25,917 nucleotides of DNA, taken from positions 1 through 25,917 of IMG/VR virus record IMGVR_UViG_3300030328_001483. One strand, written 5' to 3'. Below, piece by piece: positions 2-18,707 of the stretch. A model generated the notes under the pieces. It saw nothing but the letters and a program-made list of their open reading frames with translations, was not told the DNA's origin and did not search any database. Each line of letters starts with the position of its first letter. Position 1 is the stretch's first letter. A program made the translations under genes and the position numbers. The stretch comes from a virus.

Positions 2-583
2 ATTCGAGGCGACTCACAAGAATACGACCTTCTAAAAAAATGGACAGAGACTTTACCTTTTTATGAAGAACCAAAATTTGTAACCACAGTAGAAATTGGT
101 GTGCGTGAAGGATTGGGTTCTAAAGTTATTATGTTAGCCATTAAAGAAAGATTAGGTGGTGCTAAAATACCTTATAAACATATAGGCATAGATCCTTATG
201 CTAATTTAAAGTATCAACATTATGATACTTCTCCAGAATATACTGCAGATTACACAGATGAAATGAAGCAACAGATGGTTAAAGATTTTGAAGACCATCC
301 TGAATTTATTTTTTATCATATGAAAGACACGGAATTTATGAATGAATTTGTAGAAACAGGATTTAAAGTTTACGATTTGGTGCACTTTGATGGACCACAT
401 ATGACAAAAGATGTTTTAAGAGAGGCTATCTGGTTTGCTGATAAATCAAGAGTTGGAACAAGATTTATATTTGATGATTATAAAAAATATAAAATGGATC
501 ACATAGCATTAGTATTGACTCATTTTGGATTTAAAACAAAAGAAGCAGGAGAAAATAAAATTTGTTTGCAGAGGGCAGAATAA
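2..583 (+). CDS. SAM-dependent methyltransferase, class I (5' end outside window)
   Basis: The frame is open from base 2, and 193 residues are visible. A GTG at 101 could serve as a start, but it falls inside the glycine-rich SAM-binding motif (VEIGVREGLGS, visible residues 30-40), so the true start lies upstream of the window. Other class I methyltransferase signs are the acidic end of the next strand (GIDPY) and a later HFDGPH segment followed by RFIFDDY. Methyltransferases of this type transfer a methyl group from S-adenosylmethionine to a sugar, lipid or small molecule; the acceptor cannot be read here. The gene overlaps the next one, an oxygenase, by 22 bases, so the two are probably translated together. 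Family assignment is fairly sure, substrate unknown. Confidence 0.72.
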   Translation: MRGDSQEYDLLKKWTETLPFYEEPKFVTTVEIGVREGLGSKVIMLAIKERLGGAKIPYKHIGIDPYANLKYQHYDTSPEYTADYTDEMKQQMVKDFEDHPEFIFYHMKDTEFMNEFVETGFKVYDLVHFDGPHMTKDVLREAIWFADKSRVGTRFIFDDYKKYKMDHIALVLTHFGFKTKEAGENKICLQRAE

Positions 584-1074
584 AAGTAATAGATAATTTT
601 TTGGAGAAAGAAGAAGCAGATTTGTTAGAAAAAGAATTCTTACATCCAAAATTTCCTTGGTATTATGCAGATAGAATGAGTGAAGATGACCATTTACAAG
701 AAAGACCAGACCACCAATTTCAATTTTGTCATAATTTTTACTTCGATTATAAACCTACATCTAGTTTTTTCCCTATTTTAAAATCTTTAATTGAAAAAAT
801 GAAAATTAAGTCTATAGTCAGGATAAAATCAAATTGTATACCAATGACTTTAGAAACTATAAAACATGCTTTTCATATAGATTATGATAACAATATTACT
901 GCAATTTATTATGTAAACACAAACAATGGGTACACTGAGTTTGAGACAGGGGATAAAGTACATAGTTTAAAAAATAGAATAGTCATTTTTGATTCTAATT
1001 TAAAACACAGAGGAACAACTTGTACCGATAAACACAACAGAATTAATATAAATTTAAATTATTATGGATCTTAA
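562..1074 (+). CDS. 2OG-Fe(II) oxygenase (A)
   Basis: A 170-aa protein with a double-stranded beta-helix signature: the iron-binding H105-x-D107 pair in AFHIDYDN, a distal His149 (LKHRG) and a 2-oxoglutarate-binding Arg160 in NRININ. The middle segment IYYVNTNNGYTEF is the strand following the HxD turn. Such enzymes couple 2-oxoglutarate and O2 to hydroxylation of a protein or small molecule. The start is a TTG, chosen because AGGAGA (547-552) lies 9 bases upstream and because N-terminal helical sequence starts right after it; the next in-frame ATG is about 38 codons in. It overlaps the methyltransferase by 22 bases and the following small gene by 11. Substrate unknown. Confidence 0.8.
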   Translation: MFAEGRIKVIDNFLEKEEADLLEKEFLHPKFPWYYADRMSEDDHLQERPDHQFQFCHNFYFDYKPTSSFFPILKSLIEKMKIKSIVRIKSNCIPMTLETIKHAFHIDYDNNITAIYYVNTNNGYTEFETGDKVHSLKNRIVIFDSNLKHRGTTCTDKHNRININLNYYGS

Positions 1075-4823: not shown

Positions 4824-5354
4824 ATGTTAGTAAACCTTATGTTAATTCAGAAGTTTATTAATTCTAAAGTTAATAGAGATTACGTTTTTATTACTGGAAC
4901 TATTGAAATTAATATCCCCTATTTTATAGATAAAATAAATCGAGGTTGTAGTGAAAAAACTAATAAAAATTATCAAACACATATTAAAGGTGGTATGACA
5001 GATTGGGATTATTTTAATAATGATCCAGAATTAGGGCCCCCTCTTATGAAAATTTTAGATTGTATAGATAAACATATAGACCCTCCTGCTTATGAACTAC
5101 ATGAATGTTGGGGTTTTATAGAAAAATTTGGTGATAGAAGTACATTTCATGGTCATCCTCATTTTTTATCTGGAGTTATTTACTTAAGTAAGGGACAAGA
5201 TTTAGAATTTCCTGAAATAAAACAAACAATCAAAGCAGACGAAGGAGTATTTGGAATTTTTTCTTCTTTTTTAAAACATGGATGTTATAGAAATCATACA
5301 TCTATTCCTAAATATGGGTTATCTTTTAATCTTAGAGATACTTCAGGATATTAG
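4824..5354 (+). CDS. 2OG-Fe(II) oxygenase (B)
   Basis: 176 aa with a cluster H109-G-H111-P-H113 followed by LSGVIYL, then EGVFGIFSS with a distal His152 (LKHGC) and a closing YGLSFNL strand. The FHxHxxFLSGVIYL pattern belongs to the phage and marine putative 2OG-Fe(II) oxygenase group (PF13759/TIGR02466-like) in which HxH takes the place of HxD. The usual 2OG-binding Arg seems replaced by Lys163 (PKYGLSFNL), so activity is less certain than for its relatives. The ATG follows the terminator T-run with no ribosome binding site; another ATG lies at 4839. It stands alone between the terminator and a candidate promoter, as a moron gene would. Confidence 0.72.
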   Translation: MLVNLMLIQKFINSKVNRDYVFITGTIEINIPYFIDKINRGCSEKTNKNYQTHIKGGMTDWDYFNNDPELGPPLMKILDCIDKHIDPPAYELHECWGFIEKFGDRSTFHGHPHFLSGVIYLSKGQDLEFPEIKQTIKADEGVFGIFSSFLKHGCYRNHTSIPKYGLSFNLRDTSGY

Positions 5355-7654: not shown

Positions 7655-8365
7655 ATGGCTTATTTAAATGCAAACATTCCTCCAATTTACTGTAAAATAA
7701 GAAAAGAATATTTATATGACCTTACCGGACATGATAGAGAAAGTGAAGATTGCGTTATCTTCGGTATTGCGTCTATTCCAGGACGTTCTATCTTATTTCA
7801 TGTTATGCTACCGAATGGTGCCGTCTTTTATAGATTGCCTATATCAGCGTTTTTCCAAAAATCGTATGACAGAACCAAAGTGCCTGATATGCAAGTCCAC
7901 CAGTTGGAATTGTGGAACTGTTTTAGTTATTGGCCTAGTGTTCATAAATTTGATTGGTTGGCTGGTTTAAATGGAAAATTCTTGGGATTGGATAAAAAAT
8001 TTTATCATGGACAATATTTATTCACGATTGATTGGGCTCATCCAGACACTAACATCTTGGATGTTGAACATTCTGAAATTCCTCAAGAACATAAGTGTGC
8101 ACATATATTGGCTCTTGCTAACGGGAATTATGCAGCTCAGCCTAATAATCGTATTTTGTGGCATGTTAATAACTATACTACTGATAACAGTTGGCCAGAC
8201 TATAAAGTCCAAACTACGTATTGGGACGCAGAAAACTCAGACATGGTAACGGAGGATACAAATAATATGTTTTATCAAATGGAAAGAAAAAAAAATTCAA
8301 AAAGAACTTATAAAAAACATAAAGAATGGGCAGAAGATATGTCCTATGAAGGAGATAAAAAATGA
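7655..8365 (+). CDS. Conserved marine phage hypothetical protein (236 aa)
   Basis: 236 aa, mixed alpha/beta, without membrane segments. Visible features are an N-terminal IPPIYCKIRKEYLYDL, a core FGIASIPGRSILFHVMLPNG, the segment LELWNCFSYWPSV, FTIDWAHPDTNILD, EHKCAHILALANGNYAAQPNNRI and a Lys-rich C-terminus. I recognise the pattern as a widespread marine phage protein found beside endolysin genes, but no function is known to me. It lacks a ribosome binding site and overlaps the endolysin start by ATGA. A cytoplasmic or glycan-related role cannot be judged from sequence alone. Confidence 0.65.
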   Translation: MAYLNANIPPIYCKIRKEYLYDLTGHDRESEDCVIFGIASIPGRSILFHVMLPNGAVFYRLPISAFFQKSYDRTKVPDMQVHQLELWNCFSYWPSVHKFDWLAGLNGKFLGLDKKFYHGQYLFTIDWAHPDTNILDVEHSEIPQEHKCAHILALANGNYAAQPNNRILWHVNNYTTDNSWPDYKVQTTYWDAENSDMVTEDTNNMFYQMERKKNSKRTYKKHKEWAEDMSYEGDKK

Positions 8366-8838
8366 ACTTAAGTCGTAATTTTACACTACAAGAACTAATA
8401 AAATCAGATACAGCAATTCGTAAAGGAATTGATAACAATCCTAACGCAGATCAAATAGAAAAATTAAAAGCGTTATGTGAAAATATACTTCAACCAGTGC
8501 GTGATCACTTTGGCAGAGTTAAAGTGACCTCATGCTATCGTAGCCCAGAGCTGTGCACAGCAATTGGTAGCTCTGTAAATTCGCAGCACGCGCGTGCGGA
8601 AGCGGCAGATTTCGAAGTAATGGGTGTAGATAATGCTGAACTAGCTGATTGGATTCATAGAGAATTACAATATGATCAATTAATTGTTGAATATTATACT
8701 CCAGGAGAACCAAACTCCGGGTGGATACATTGTAGCTATATACCTGAAGGTAGACGTGCCTCTTTTTTACATGCATTTAAAAGTGAAGGAAAAACCAAAT
8801 ATAAACCAATATTAGGAAAAGCAGTAGATTTAGTGTAA
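8362..8838 (+). CDS. M15-type peptidase endolysin
   Basis: 158 aa, the size of phage M15 peptidases. The zinc-binding pattern is visible as SQHARAEAAD (His76 and Asp83, family form SxHxxGxAxD with the Gly replaced by Ala79) and WIHCS (His123). CYRSPE (59-64) and FTLQELIKSDTA near the start are also typical of the M15A group. The enzyme would cleave peptide cross-links of peptidoglycan at lysis. The ATG overlaps the preceding stop (ATGA), with GGAG upstream in AAGGAGATAAAAAATG. No signal peptide, so export would depend on a holin or similar. Confidence 0.87.
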   Translation: MNLSRNFTLQELIKSDTAIRKGIDNNPNADQIEKLKALCENILQPVRDHFGRVKVTSCYRSPELCTAIGSSVNSQHARAEAADFEVMGVDNAELADWIHRELQYDQLIVEYYTPGEPNSGWIHCSYIPEGRRASFLHAFKSEGKTKYKPILGKAVDLV

Positions 8839-8860
8839 ATATTTGATAATAATATTTCAA

Positions 8861-9469
8861 ATGTTAATTACTCCTTTTGTTGATTGGATTATAAAAATAA
8901 ATATACCAGAAATCGATAATAAAAAAATTTTAAATTCTCTTAAAAAATTAGAATACAATAATGTTTATGAGGATAATCGACCAGGTTCTCACATATCTGC
9001 ATCCTATAACATATTAGATATTATTGATAAGGGTGCTTTTATAAAAAAAATTTTATTACAAAAAATAAACAACGCACTTGAAAAATATTCATTTGAAACT
9101 AAAGTAAAATTAGGAATAGTTTGGAGTTCTAAAACACCTTTTGAATCATTTTCTGATTATCATTGGCACACTAATCACTGGTTAAGTGCGGTATATTATC
9201 CACAAGGAACCACAGAACATCCTAATTATCTTGGTTTTAGAAAAAGAAAATTAGATAATTGGTATACTTTGTCTACAGAAAAAAACTTAAAACCTTGGAC
9301 TCAAGAAAAATATGTTTTAACTACTGTAGCTGGTGATTTAGTTATTTTTCCTGCTTGCTATGAACATAGAGTTGAGATAAATAATTCTTTTAAAAACAGA
9401 TTCTCAATTGCAATGGTATGTATGCCCGTTGGAAAAATAGGAGTGGGAGATGGACAAAATTATTTATAA
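8861..9469 (+). CDS. 2OG-Fe(II) oxygenase (C)
   Basis: 202 aa from the ATG at 8861; a TTG at 8843 in frame is less likely, having no ribosome binding site and adding only a short hydrophobic stretch. Motifs: H101-W-H103-T-N-H106 then WLSAVYYPQG, AGDLVIFPACYEH with distal His169, and Arg180 in NRFSIAM. This is the PF13759-like phage oxygenase layout with an HxH ligand pair. It is the first of three oxygenase genes in a row; its stop overlaps the next start as TAATG. The encoding DNA is very AT-rich. Substrate unknown. Confidence 0.75.
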   Translation: MLITPFVDWIIKINIPEIDNKKILNSLKKLEYNNVYEDNRPGSHISASYNILDIIDKGAFIKKILLQKINNALEKYSFETKVKLGIVWSSKTPFESFSDYHWHTNHWLSAVYYPQGTTEHPNYLGFRKRKLDNWYTLSTEKNLKPWTQEKYVLTTVAGDLVIFPACYEHRVEINNSFKNRFSIAMVCMPVGKIGVGDGQNYL

Positions 9470-10071
9470 TGATTAAAGCTTTTGAAGTATCCTGTCCAAT
9501 ATTAAAAGATGTTTTTCCTGAACATAAAACATTAAAAAATTCTTTATATGATAAAATAAAAAATACTAAAGATGTAGGGTGGTTTAATCACAAAGATAAT
9601 TATAATGATAGAATACACCGAACTGATTGGCCTATAGCTGATAATTTTAAAAGAGAATGGGTAAAAGAATTAATACAACCTTTATATAATCAATTAAATA
9701 AATTTGCTTTAACTTTAGGTTATACAAACGTTATAATTAATAAAGTGTGGTATCAAACTTATAAAAATAACCATATTCATAATTGGCATACGCATCACTC
9801 TAATTTTACGGGGGTGTATTATCTTAAAATGCCTACTATTAATACAAGTACATATACACAATTTTTATATCCATCTTCTTTAGAAAATGCTTTTTCAATA
9901 GAAGTACAAGAAGGGGATATGGTTTTTTTCCCCTCACATTTTATTCATCGTTCTCCAGCTTTACAAAGTAAAGAAGATGAGGAGAAAGTTATAATATCTT
10001 GGAACTTAGATTTTAATAGAGTAGATGCAAAGTATACTAAAGATAAAACTTCAAAAGTTATATTAAGTTAA
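9469..10071 (+). CDS. 2OG-Fe(II) oxygenase (D)
   Basis: 200 aa from the ATG at 9469, which overlaps the previous stop (TAATG); an in-frame ATG at 9418 would overlap the upstream gene by 50 bases and adds basic residues unlike the family. Motifs: WYQTYKNNHIHNWHTHHS, with H107-T-H109 (alternatively H102/H104) as likely iron ligands, TGVYYLKMP, then EGDMVFFPSHFIH with distal His160 and a closing VIISWNLDF strand. Lys173 stands where the 2OG-binding Arg is often found. Family assignment is good, activity slightly uncertain. Confidence 0.75.
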   Translation: MIKAFEVSCPILKDVFPEHKTLKNSLYDKIKNTKDVGWFNHKDNYNDRIHRTDWPIADNFKREWVKELIQPLYNQLNKFALTLGYTNVIINKVWYQTYKNNHIHNWHTHHSNFTGVYYLKMPTINTSTYTQFLYPSSLENAFSIEVQEGDMVFFPSHFIHRSPALQSKEDEEKVIISWNLDFNRVDAKYTKDKTSKVILS

Positions 10072-10608
10072 ATGAAAATAAATATTTTTTCTATTCCTAT
10101 TTATGCAACTACTATTGATGTAAATGAGATAAGAATAAATCATGTAGATTTTGTCAAAACGTGGTTATCTAAGACTGAAAGTTCTCACAATTTTAATAAT
10201 GAGGTATGTCCTGATTCAACAAAGTATTTATTAAAAAATGTTTCTGATCTTATTTCAGAAGATATTGGAAAACCACATAGACTTCATTTAAAAAGCATTT
10301 GGGAAAATCATTATAAAGAAAACGATTATCAAGATAAACACATTCATCCTATGTCTCATTTTTCATTTATTATTTATAAAAAGATTTCAGAATCTAATAC
10401 TTTGTTTTTTCATCCTGCTGATAAATTATTACAATCTTATTATGAAAATATGGAATTGCCTATTTTTATGGAAAATTTTAAACCAGATTTAAAACAAGGC
10501 CAATTGTTGGTCTTCCCTAGTTTCTTAGAACATATGGTATTAAAGCATAACCATTCTGAAACAATCGCTGGTAATATACTTATAGAATTACTTGAAAAAA
10601 AAATTTAA
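10072..10608 (+). CDS. 2OG-Fe(II) oxygenase (E)
   Basis: 178 aa, starting the base after the preceding stop codon, without its own ribosome binding site. Motifs: IWENHYKENDYQDKHIHPMS, with H90-I-H92, SFIIYKK, SNTLFFHP, GQLLVFPSFLEH with His154, then TIAGNILIE. This matches a cyanophage and marine phage oxygenase subgroup in which the strand after the distal His reads TIAGN rather than carrying Arg at the same place. It belongs to a subfamily different from its two upstream neighbours, so the run is not a simple tandem duplication. Substrate unknown. Confidence 0.73.
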   Translation: MKINIFSIPIYATTIDVNEIRINHVDFVKTWLSKTESSHNFNNEVCPDSTKYLLKNVSDLISEDIGKPHRLHLKSIWENHYKENDYQDKHIHPMSHFSFIIYKKISESNTLFFHPADKLLQSYYENMELPIFMENFKPDLKQGQLLVFPSFLEHMVLKHNHSETIAGNILIELLEKKI

Positions 10609-10632
10609 CCCATTCTTAAAACTATTGCGCTC

Positions 10633-10661
10633 TAGATTATGGGCTCCGAAAGTGGTACAAT
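10633..10661 (+). promoter_or_regulatory. Candidate extended -10 promoter before tail module
   Basis: TGG-TACAAT (extended -10, hexamer 10656-10661) with a weak TAGATT at 17-base spacing (10633-10638), in an 86-base gap after the oxygenase run and before the tail genes. Supported only by consensus and position. Confidence 0.3.
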
Positions 10662-10694
10662 CCAAGAAGGTGTATAACCGTAAAAAGGAGAAAC

Positions 10695-10784
10695 ATGTCA
10701 CTTACAGAAAAAGGAAAGAAGATTATGGAAGCAATGACTAAAAATAAAGGAAATATTAAAGGAGAGGCATGTCTAACAAATTGA
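10695..10784 (+). CDS. 29-aa small basic ORF
   Basis: A 29-codon ORF (MSLTEKGKKIMEAM, then KNKGNIKGEA) with AAAAAGGAG 4 bases before the ATG and a 16-base overlap with the next gene. Its sequence resembles a small marine phage protein built on LTxKGKKI and NKGxIKG blocks, but here the middle is shorter and the end continues with ACLTN, so it could be a deleted derivative. The strong ribosome binding site argues that it is translated or serves to couple translation of the next gene. Confidence 0.45.
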   Translation: MSLTEKGKKIMEAMTKNKGNIKGEACLTN

Positions 10785-11215
10785 CTAAAATGAGAGTTGA
10801 GTTTGATACTGGTATGCAAGATTTCATGCCTAAACCTTATTTTACTGAAAAAGATTTAAAAAAATCTGGTGAAAAAAAGTTAAAACCCTCTTTAACAATC
10901 AGAAAACAAAAATTTAAAAATGAATTTATAAAAGGAACTCCTAGCCAAGAAATAGAATCAGAATTTGGTATAAAAATATCAAAAGACCAAAAAGGAATTT
11001 TTTTTAAAAAAAAATTTAAAAGAGGTGGTGATGTAATGAAAGCAGCAATGGGTAGAGCAGCCTTCAGTGAGACTACATCGCAAGCTCCAAGTACACCAAA
11101 ATTAGAAAAATATAATGGTAGTTATATGCATTCTGAGATAGACGGCAGAAAAGTAAGTAATGATAGTTTAGTAAAATATTATGGACCTTTATTGAAAGGA
11201 TTTAAAAATGACTGA
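10769..11215 (+). CDS. Lys-rich hypothetical protein of the tail module
   Basis: 148 aa, very basic, with repeated Lys runs (LKKSGEKKLKPS, FFKKKFKRGG) and a helical stretch FKRGGDVMKAAMGRAAFSE about residues 84-102. GGAGAGG just upstream supports the start. It overlaps the 29-aa ORF before it and the 60-aa gene after it. I do not recognise a family; the paired glycines after Lys/Arg recur in the neighbour (MKKGGITDY) and in the protein at 24855 (RTGGIAEIKKF), which suggests a shared motif of virion or DNA-associated proteins. Function unknown. Confidence 0.55.
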   Translation: MSNKLTKMRVEFDTGMQDFMPKPYFTEKDLKKSGEKKLKPSLTIRKQKFKNEFIKGTPSQEIESEFGIKISKDQKGIFFKKKFKRGGDVMKAAMGRAAFSETTSQAPSTPKLEKYNGSYMHSEIDGRKVSNDSLVKYYGPLLKGFKND

Positions 11216-16849: not shown

Positions 16850-17599
16850 ATGTGGTCTTCCGACAATATCATAAAGTTTTCGCACAGTCCTGAATGGACT
16901 GATTATCTTAAAGATGTTTATCCTATTCCTGCTAAATTTAACATTCCAGATTGGTATAAAAATTTAAAACATAGTTTTAAAATTCAAACTGTTAAAGGAT
17001 GTATGCCTTTTTTAGATTCCTTAAGTGCTGGGTATATTTTAAAATTACCTCAAGATATGTATATTGCTCATAATGTTAAGAACGGTGAAGGAAATCCAGA
17101 TTCTTACTTTAAAAACGCAATACATGTTGCACAAGAAGTATTAAGACATAAATATGCTGTTAATATAGGATCAGATGCTGATGATTTCCACCAACCTTAT
17201 CAATTGGGAAAGTGTCCTATGCACGAAAAAAATAAACACTTACCTTACTATAAAATAATAAATCCTTTTCAAATAACTACTCCTCCAGGATATTCTTGTC
17301 TTTTTGTGCCTCCTTTAAATAATCGTGATGATAGATTTGAAATTATATCAGGTATTGTAGACACTGATACTTTTAATTCAGAGGTAAATTTTCCTATGAT
17401 AATTAATGGTGATAAGTACCCTGTGCTAGAAACTACTTTAAAAAGAGGTACTCCGTATGTACAAGTTATTCCTTTTAAAAGAGAAGATTGGAAAATGAAA
17501 ATAAACAATAAAGAAAAAAGAACAGAACTTTCTGCTTTTAAAAAATATATACAAGATAATTACAAAAAAATCTTTTGGAAGAAGAAAAAATGGAACTAA
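16850..17599 (+). CDS. Conserved phage hypothetical protein (249 aa)
   Basis: 249 aa. Recognisable segments are SPEWTDYLKDVYPIPAKFNI, IPDWYKNLKHSFK (around residues 30-40), TVKGCMPFLDSLSAGYILKL, FQITTPPGYSCLFVPPLNNR and a C-terminal VQVIPFKREDWK. The family occurs in cyanophages and marine phages as an unnamed protein; the beta-rich second half with TPPGYSC and TPYVQVIPF could be a cupin or DSBH-like fold, but no HxD pair is evident, so I do not call it an oxygenase. It has no ribosome binding site and overlaps the following oxygenase by 10 bases. Confidence 0.58.
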   Translation: MWSSDNIIKFSHSPEWTDYLKDVYPIPAKFNIPDWYKNLKHSFKIQTVKGCMPFLDSLSAGYILKLPQDMYIAHNVKNGEGNPDSYFKNAIHVAQEVLRHKYAVNIGSDADDFHQPYQLGKCPMHEKNKHLPYYKIINPFQITTPPGYSCLFVPPLNNRDDRFEIISGIVDTDTFNSEVNFPMIINGDKYPVLETTLKRGTPYVQVIPFKREDWKMKINNKEKRTELSAFKKYIQDNYKKIFWKKKKWN

Positions 17600-18168
17600 A
17601 AAATTTTATAAGAATATTTGATAATACGCATGATTTAAAAATTATTGGTTCATTTATAAAATATTTAAATACTGTTAAGTTTGAAGAAGCTAAAATAATA
17701 GAGTCCCACACTAAACCAGATATTATTAAGAAAAAAACTAGAGCTGCTACAACATTTCCTTTTCATATAGACGAAAAAAATTTATCTAAAACACATTGGT
17801 ATAATTATTGGTGTAATTTTTTTACTCACTATCATATTGAATATCAATCGCTTTTAACTTGTAGAACAGAATCTTCTGGTATTTCAAGTCTAGAAGCGTT
17901 GCAGTATGATGTGGGTGGTAAGTATATAATTCACACAGATTATCATTTAAAATTTCCACGAAATATAAGTATAATTTATTTTTTAAATGATGATTATAAA
18001 GGAGGGGAGTTAAATTTTCATAACCCTCAAAATAGAGATGAAATTTATCAAACGGTTAAACCTAAATCAGGGAGAATGATAGTATGGCCTTCAAATTTTT
18101 TATATCCTCATTCTGTTAATAATGTAACAGAAGGAAAAAGATTTGTTTTGGTATCATGGTTCGCATAA
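17590..18168 (+). CDS. 2OG-Fe(II) oxygenase (F), prolyl-4-hydroxylase-like
   Basis: 192 aa from ATG 17590; a TTG at 17575 in frame is possible but lacks a better ribosome binding site. The canonical set is complete: YDVGGKYIIHTDYH with H115-T-D117, GGELNFHNP after the turn, GRMIVWPSNFLYPHSV with His174 and Arg184 in GKRFVLVSW. This P4H-type enzyme should hydroxylate a peptide or amino-acid side chain and is the most clearly active oxygenase in the window. It lies between a 249-aa unknown protein and another oxygenase, overlapping both. Confidence 0.83.
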   Translation: MELKNFIRIFDNTHDLKIIGSFIKYLNTVKFEEAKIIESHTKPDIIKKKTRAATTFPFHIDEKNLSKTHWYNYWCNFFTHYHIEYQSLLTCRTESSGISSLEALQYDVGGKYIIHTDYHLKFPRNISIIYFLNDDYKGGELNFHNPQNRDEIYQTVKPKSGRMIVWPSNFLYPHSVNNVTEGKRFVLVSWFA

Positions 18169-18707
18169 TGACTCAAGAAGATTTTAAATATCACAGAGTA
18201 AATAATTTTTTAAATACAACAGAAATAAATTTATTAAAAGATTATTGTAAATTACAACATATAAATAATAAAACTAATTTTGATGTTCTACAAAATAACA
18301 ACGGAGATACATGTTTTTACAAAGATCTTTTAATGCAAGTTATATTAAATAATAAAAAAAATATTGTAGAAAAAGTTTTAAAAATTGATTTACATCCCAC
18401 ATATACATTTTGGCGATGTTATACTTATGGTGCAATATTAAAAGAGCATACTGATAGACCGTCTTGTGAATTTTCTGTAACAGTTTTAATAGACTCAGAT
18501 AAAACCGATTGGCCTATTTACATGGAAGACACACCAATATCTTTAAATGTTGGGGATGCTGTTGTATATAAAGGAACTAATGTAAGACACAGACGTGAAG
18601 CTTTTGAGGGAGATTATTGTATGCAAGTTTTTTTACATTATGTAAATCAGAAAGGACCACATGCTAACCATAGAGGAGATTTAATAAATGAAAATAATTC
18701 AAGATAA
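18168..18707 (+). CDS. 2OG-Fe(II) oxygenase (G)
   Basis: 179 aa from ATG 18168, which overlaps the previous stop (TAATG); an ATG 12 bases upstream is an alternative. Motifs: RCYTYGAILKEHTDRPSCE with H94-T-D96, LNVGDAVVYKGTNVRHRRE with distal His141 and Arg142/143, and YCMQVFLHYV. The HTDRPSCEFSVTV pattern is a distinct phage subgroup of hydroxylase-like proteins. Its C-terminus runs into the start of the small gene at 18688. The family is clear; the substrate is unknown. Confidence 0.78.
   Translation: MTQEDFKYHRVNNFLNTTEINLLKDYCKLQHINNKTNFDVLQNNNGDTCFYKDLLMQVILNNKKNIVEKVLKIDLHPTYTFWRCYTYGAILKEHTDRPSCEFSVTVLIDSDKTDWPIYMEDTPISLNVGDAVVYKGTNVRHRREAFEGDYCMQVFLHYVNQKGPHANHRGDLINENNSR

Follow-up and report, generated by a model that had tools for sequence, protein, structure and literature searches.

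In HTVC023P-type pelagiphages, eight non-orthologous 2-oxoglutarate (2OG) oxygenase genes have been described, often near one another and partnered by genes called ferrochelatases (Wittmers et al. 2022, PMC9599517). The same study terms the oxygenase genes 'nearby (although not adjacent)' and considers their length insufficient for a phylogeny. T4-GC 101 and T4-GC 155, for their part, belong to the core genes shared by 16 T4-like cyanophages (Sullivan et al. 2010, PMC3037559).

The DNA analysed here (the window) is a 25,917-base IMG/VR virus record related to Pelagibacter phage HTVC023P, to which it is 74% identical in the shared parts. The hosts of its relatives are the ocean's most abundant bacteria. 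Between an endolysin gene, which is a constant feature to the left of the cassette among these phages, and a gene group that starts at 10769, the window carries three intact open reading frames, called C, D and E below.

8362..8838, + strand: M15 peptidase (endolysin; PF08291, phrog_894 endolysin)
8861..9469, + strand: gene C, PF13759 oxygenase of the T4-GC 101 clade (46.5 bits against a cut-off of 27; tree)
9467..9471, + strand: TAATG stop/start overlap of C and D, the same in contigs L004, L005 and L006
9469..10071, + strand: gene D, PF13759 oxygenase of the T4-GC 155/156 clade (31.1 bits against a cut-off of 27)
10072..10608, + strand: gene E, PF13759 oxygenase-like, in a clade of its own, without the 2OG-anchoring Arg/Lys (39.5 bits)

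The original prediction was that these genes, tightly joined, very AT-rich and devoid of ribosome binding sites of their own, are co-translated and encode enzymes that act together or on the same target. The layout is as it described. The TAA of C (9467-9469) shares a base with the ATG of D (9469-9471), the stop of D (10069-10071) is followed directly by the ATG of E at 10072 (junction TAAATG), and no Shine-Dalgarno match of at least 4 nt precedes any of the three starts. The two lines sampled for base composition have 21.7% and 20.0% G+C, and the genes as a whole have 27.1% (C), 25.9% (D) and 25.0% (E) against 34.1% for the window. In the window's other AT-rich stretch, at 17.5-19 kb, there are overlapping oxygenase-type genes too. 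The ATG at 8861 is supported as the start of C by L005 and L006, where the in-frame TTG upstream of it is missing; that TTG, at 8843, which has no ribosome site either, was not favoured, nor was the ATG at 9418, equally devoid of a ribosome site, as the start of D. In the 160-nt gap 3' of E we noted a possible 29-codon reading frame (10696-10785) with a GGAG motif before it.

Since C, D and E lie on one strand within the structural region and no terminator-like site separates them, they would most likely be carried on one late transcript and translated by stop/start coupling. The 8300-10900 interval contained no terminator-like site and no more promoter-like sites than shuffled versions of it; no Rfam family matched in the window, and no convincing repeats were found at the cassette edges. 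Co-translation of the three genes is plausible. What could not be upheld is the use of missing ribosome sites and stop/start overlaps, taken by themselves, as an argument for a common target, both being common in this genome. Neighbouring genes overlap or abut at 18 of 40 junctions in our gene set, five of them by 1 nt, and the junction types of C-D-E are not special in so compact a genome. At related loci, overlap or abutment was found at 48 of 61 oxygenase-oxygenase junctions versus 299 of 509 other close junctions. As for ribosome sites, one of the seven oxygenase-type genes in the window has a Shine-Dalgarno site versus 23 of the 33 others (Fisher p = 0.011); the structural genes mostly have AAGGAG-like sites. 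Because overlap and abutment are so frequent here, the joins point to the compactness of phage genomes and perhaps to translational coupling, rather than special design.

The trio is not confined to the window. C-D-E recurs in the same order and with the same stop/start junctions in the IMG/VR contigs L004, L005 and L006, as the synteny search had been expected to show. Between the window and L006, dS is 0.06 for C, 0.16 for D and 0.05 for E versus 0.32-1.83 for the flanking genes, and the two endolysins are only 46% identical, so that the block must have been exchanged recently between diverged phages. With dN/dS at 0.06-0.45, well below 1, the trio is under purifying selection and kept for its function. 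In L005 a further oxygenase-like gene lies between the endolysin gene and C. Homologues of C, D and E also co-locate in more distant viruses, in rearranged sets: C-endolysin-D-E in L042 and E-B-C-F-D in L032, L044 and L116. Endolysin-E-D is found in L050, L120, L124 and L125, and E stands directly 3' of the endolysin gene, with neither C nor D, in L008, L010 and their relatives. The C-D-E order was kept in L004-L006 only, and the three genes are not an obligate unit.

These data bear directly on the view that the products are co-translated and act together, as a heteromer or in successive steps on one target. Four contigs with the same order and junctions, exchange of the whole block and renewed co-location of the three clades in L042, L032 and L044 are what joint action would predict; C also accompanies D among 58 clusters of E sequences more often than expected (hypergeometric 5e-4, kinship being ignored), and the C and D clades are both present in the cyanophage core (PMC3037559). 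Against this, E follows the endolysin gene alone in L008 and L010, E-D lacks C in L050 and L120, D-C has no adjacent E in phage HTVC008M, and the C- and D-clade genes of P-SSM2 are about 7 kb apart. Because E occurs without C or D and changes its neighbours from virus to virus, a fixed complex is not indicated, and we regard joint action as rather unlikely. Repeated co-occurrence and block transfer, a sign that the genes stay together, support the prediction in part; joint action on one target is one option among several. Our preferred reading is a modular collection of tailoring oxygenases whose members are shuffled, rather than a fixed three-enzyme machine. We hold, with somewhat better than even confidence, that the trio belongs to a modular arsenal of tailoring oxygenases, forming one cassette that is passed as a block among related phages. 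In such an arsenal oxygenases would be added, lost and reordered between viruses, each with a substrate or site to itself. A joint pathway would be expected to leave gene maps similar to those of an arsenal of independent enzymes.

The three genes were also said to belong to different subgroups. This is true at the level of clades; the larger family is one and the same. All three exceed the PF13759 (2OG-FeII_Oxy_5) cut-off of 27 bits, share phrog_81 as their PHROG match and have a common HxH...H motif; they score 42.2 (C), 37.3 (D) and 33.3 bits (E) against TIGR02466, each under the NCBIfam cut-off of 62.5. In a 32-row tree, with long branches in the C group, they fall into three clades, each with relatives in T4-like marine phages. 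The C clade contains P-SSM2 148 and S-H38 155 and, more loosely, S-B64 97, S-WAM2 63 and HTVC008M gp070; P-SSM2 148 and HTVC008M gp070 carry the T4-GC 101 label. The D clade contains HTVC008M gp071 and P-SSM2 159 (labelled T4-GC 155), P-SSM2 160 (156) and Mosig 24, and the E clade contains genes of HTVC008M, S-SSM7, S-B64 and Sf-FS3. Tandem duplication within the cassette does not explain the trio, for each of its genes has closer kin in T4-like phages than in the other two. C, D and E are old members of the phage PF13759 family that diverged separately; they were collected next to the endolysin gene in an HTVC023P-type pelagiphage and, as the comparison with L006 shows, passed between related phages as a block. 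Cellular homologues of E in the genome collection numbered only seven, all remote, so there is no host operon from which its function might be read.

Each product is predicted from its sequence to be a small iron enzyme of the double-stranded beta-helix fold, in which three histidines (HxH...H) form the metal site. The fold was modelled for E (AF2, pLDDT 93.5), whose best PDB matches are 3bvc (Z 16.4) and 2rg4 (Z 16.1), and is assigned to C and D by profile, the C profile (2e-10) and D profile (1e-6) matching these same two Roseobacter-group structures; a single-sequence search found no solved relatives of D. H101, H103, H169 and R180 of C are invariant among eight relatives, as are H107, H109, H160 and K173 of D among nine, and the metal histidines of E (H90, H92 and H154) are kept in all 42 E-clade sequences. 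Since 2rg4 and 3bvc carry HIH...H as well, the histidine that replaces the usual Asp/Glu is a trait of the family and not a peculiarity of this locus. We infer with good reason that E binds metal.

The resemblance of E to nucleic-acid enzymes deserves mention, because E. coli AlkB is the next match of the model after 3bvc and 2rg4 (Z 12.7, 2.9 Å, 150 residues). Repair of nucleic acids or modification of DNA bases, of the AlkB or Tet kind, nonetheless seems very improbable, given an identity of 7%, about equal matches to prolyl hydroxylases (Z 11-12) and the fact that a shared fold is no proof of function.

In 2OG oxygenases, an Arg or Lys after the distal histidine anchors the 2OG carboxylate. 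This position is occupied by R180 in C (8/8) and by K173 in D (9/9), and judged by these residues C and D should be ordinary 2OG-dependent hydroxylases. Members of the E clade have S, G, Q, T, C, N or A there, with Arg/Lys in 0 of 42 sequences, and no replacement Arg/Lys-rich column follows the distal histidine in the 42 aligned sequences. E would then have to bind its co-substrate differently, perhaps through other anchors, or not use 2OG. This matters for the proposal, made for cyanophages (PMC3037559), that phages spend 2OG as a sink or signal, shifting host nitrogen signalling or making succinate. Cyanobacterial nitrogen signalling is indeed driven by 2OG, but the proposal concerns cyanobacterial NtcA and not the host group of the window virus, E is without the usual 2OG anchor, and a sink would not need many diverse clades; we give this explanation hardly any weight.

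Four more oxygenase-like genes were found in the window.

562..1074, + strand: oxygenase-like gene, phrog_274 'DNA endonuclease V' (PF13640 24.2 bits, just under the cut-off of 27)
4824..5354, + strand: further PF13759 oxygenase outside the trio (28.2 bits against a cut-off of 27; HGH motif)
17575..18168, + strand: PF13640 oxygenase, overlapping the next oxygenase (67.5 bits)
18156..18707, + strand: phrog_2954 'ferrochelatase', re-read as a probable 2OG-type oxygenase (AF2 pLDDT 85.2; PDB matches)

The gene at 18156-18707 is a clear member of phrog_2954, a family named in PMC11561400, and its name recalls the 'ferrochelatase' described as the partner of pelagiphage oxygenases (PMC9599517). The top PDB matches of its model are prolyl hydroxylases and other 2OG oxygenases, and in the family H98 and D100 (HxD) are invariant and the distal H145 nearly so. 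PF00762, the ferrochelatase family, had no match in the window and none in 16 phrog_2954 members; among 14 control genomes, eight have a PF00762 ferrochelatase and none has phrog_2954. It is this missing PF00762 match that excludes a ferrochelatase identity for the gene, rather than the structural matches listed for the model, among which there is no ferrochelatase. On sequence and model, the 'ferrochelatase' label of phrog_2954 is very probably wrong and the gene one more oxygenase belonging to these runs; where pelagiphages and seasonal viromes have been reported to carry a ferrochelatase accessory gene, it would then probably be a misannotated oxygenase. We found no paper in the open-access literature that questions the label.

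Three observations on neighbouring families were made in passing. The first half of phrog_3531 (362 positions, also called ferrochelatase) matches the gene at 18156 and its second half the PF13640 gene at 17575, a pattern to be expected if the neighbours had fused naturally. The matches of phrog_274 in L024:1851-2504 and L005:2569-3048 look oxygenase-like too, as does 562-1074, with HxD-type motifs, which makes the name 'DNA endonuclease V' doubtful. PF20043 (DUF6445) genes (phrog_1644 'minor coat protein') adjoin oxygenases at L104:5318-6004, L108:6519-7025 and L090:8963-9481; some of them weakly match the oxygenase-like phrog_274, and DUF6445 is possibly one more oxygenase group.

Runs of oxygenase genes proved to be widespread among marine phages. 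A scan with the E alignment gave 80 loci and, together with earlier finds, 58 clusters of E at 90% identity, which are not fully independent; loci are cut at contig ends, D was sampled by single-protein scans, sampling centred on C and D is thinner than that centred on E, and the labels B, H and S21 rest on small custom profiles. In 33 of the 58 clusters E forms part of a run of two or more oxygenase-like genes side by side, and in 11 the run has at least three; the longest run has seven genes, F-C-C-H-F-E-G (L071), and an S21-E pairing is found in cyanomyophages. Permuting the genes within loci 5000 times gave 45.2 +/- 4.7 adjacent oxygenase pairs, with a maximum of 62, against 79 observed among the 58 relatives, so that oxygenase genes adjoin one another well beyond chance.

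It could be argued that an insertion-tolerant site beside the endolysin gene simply gathers AT-rich accessory genes, in which case adjacency would be uninformative on joint function. The endolysin flank is indeed variable: HTVC023P and HTVC027P have different genes there, L005 has one more gene, and in L010 E stands alone, preceded by the endolysin gene as C-D-E is in L004-L006; moreover, the oxygenase genes are low in G+C and mostly lack Shine-Dalgarno sites. Such accretion is possible, if doubtful, as an explanation: oxygenase runs also occur far from endolysin genes (HTVC008M, S-H38, S-B64, L071, L055), and oxygenases neighbour oxygenases far above the permuted expectation. The more general view, in which iron oxygenase genes are interchangeable and are stacked by marine phages, the trio being a block-transferred example, has better support than the one-target view.

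Some hints at substrates come from the company that E keeps in other phages, where the tailoring-enzyme neighbours are located, rather than in the window. In a cyanomyophage locus (L090:2543-12415), five oxygenase-like genes, E included, are interleaved with genes for tailoring-type enzymes, namely a NodU-like carbamoyltransferase, an HldE-like kinase/cytidylyltransferase, a sugar epimerase, a cupin and a HAD phosphatase, and the cluster looks like one for virus-encoded tailoring of heptose or sugar nucleotides. Elsewhere a tryptophan-halogenase-like gene (L043) or a methyltransferase gene (L055) lies beside an oxygenase run. Neighbours of this kind point to sugars or small molecules as the targets of tailoring, weakly so for the window. 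Going by the carbamoyltransferase, heptose-type sugar-nucleotide, methyltransferase and halogenase neighbours in those phages, the likeliest substrates would be glycans, or building blocks of another surface or small-molecule kind, produced during infection, though this is a tentative guess at well under even odds. A bolder, two-part reading, and an unlikely one in our estimate, would have the E clade be widespread, near-purely viral three-histidine iron enzymes without the usual use of 2OG and, at the same time, the runs of two to seven oxygenases, 'ferrochelatase' included, be an interchangeable pathway decorating one class of infection-specific glycan or metabolite. An oxygenase-like 'ferrochelatase' weakens the haem-iron story and turns attention to what the stacked viral oxygenases hydroxylate.

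Set beside known systems, the modular cassette proposed here has clear relatives and clear differences. The HTVC023P-type pelagiphages (PMC9599517) are the same phage group as the window virus; unlike the nearby, non-adjacent genes described there, the three genes of the window overlap or touch, are transferred together and can be assigned to clades. In the T4-like cyanophages (PMC3037559), T4-GC 101 falls in the C clade and T4-GC 155 in the D clade, but the C- and D-clade genes of P-SSM2, separated by some 7 kb, are in the replication region, whereas in the window they overlap by 1 base in the structural region and E is added. The cultured pelagiphage HTVC008M has five consecutive, overlapping oxygenase genes (gp072-gp068), in which a D-clade gene directly precedes a C-clade gene; the order is thus D-C and not C-D, the other members of the run differ, and the E homologue lies elsewhere in the genome. 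The Roseobacter-group proteins 2rg4 and 3bvc, the best structural matches to E, share its HIH...H motif but are cellular and keep the Arg that E lacks.
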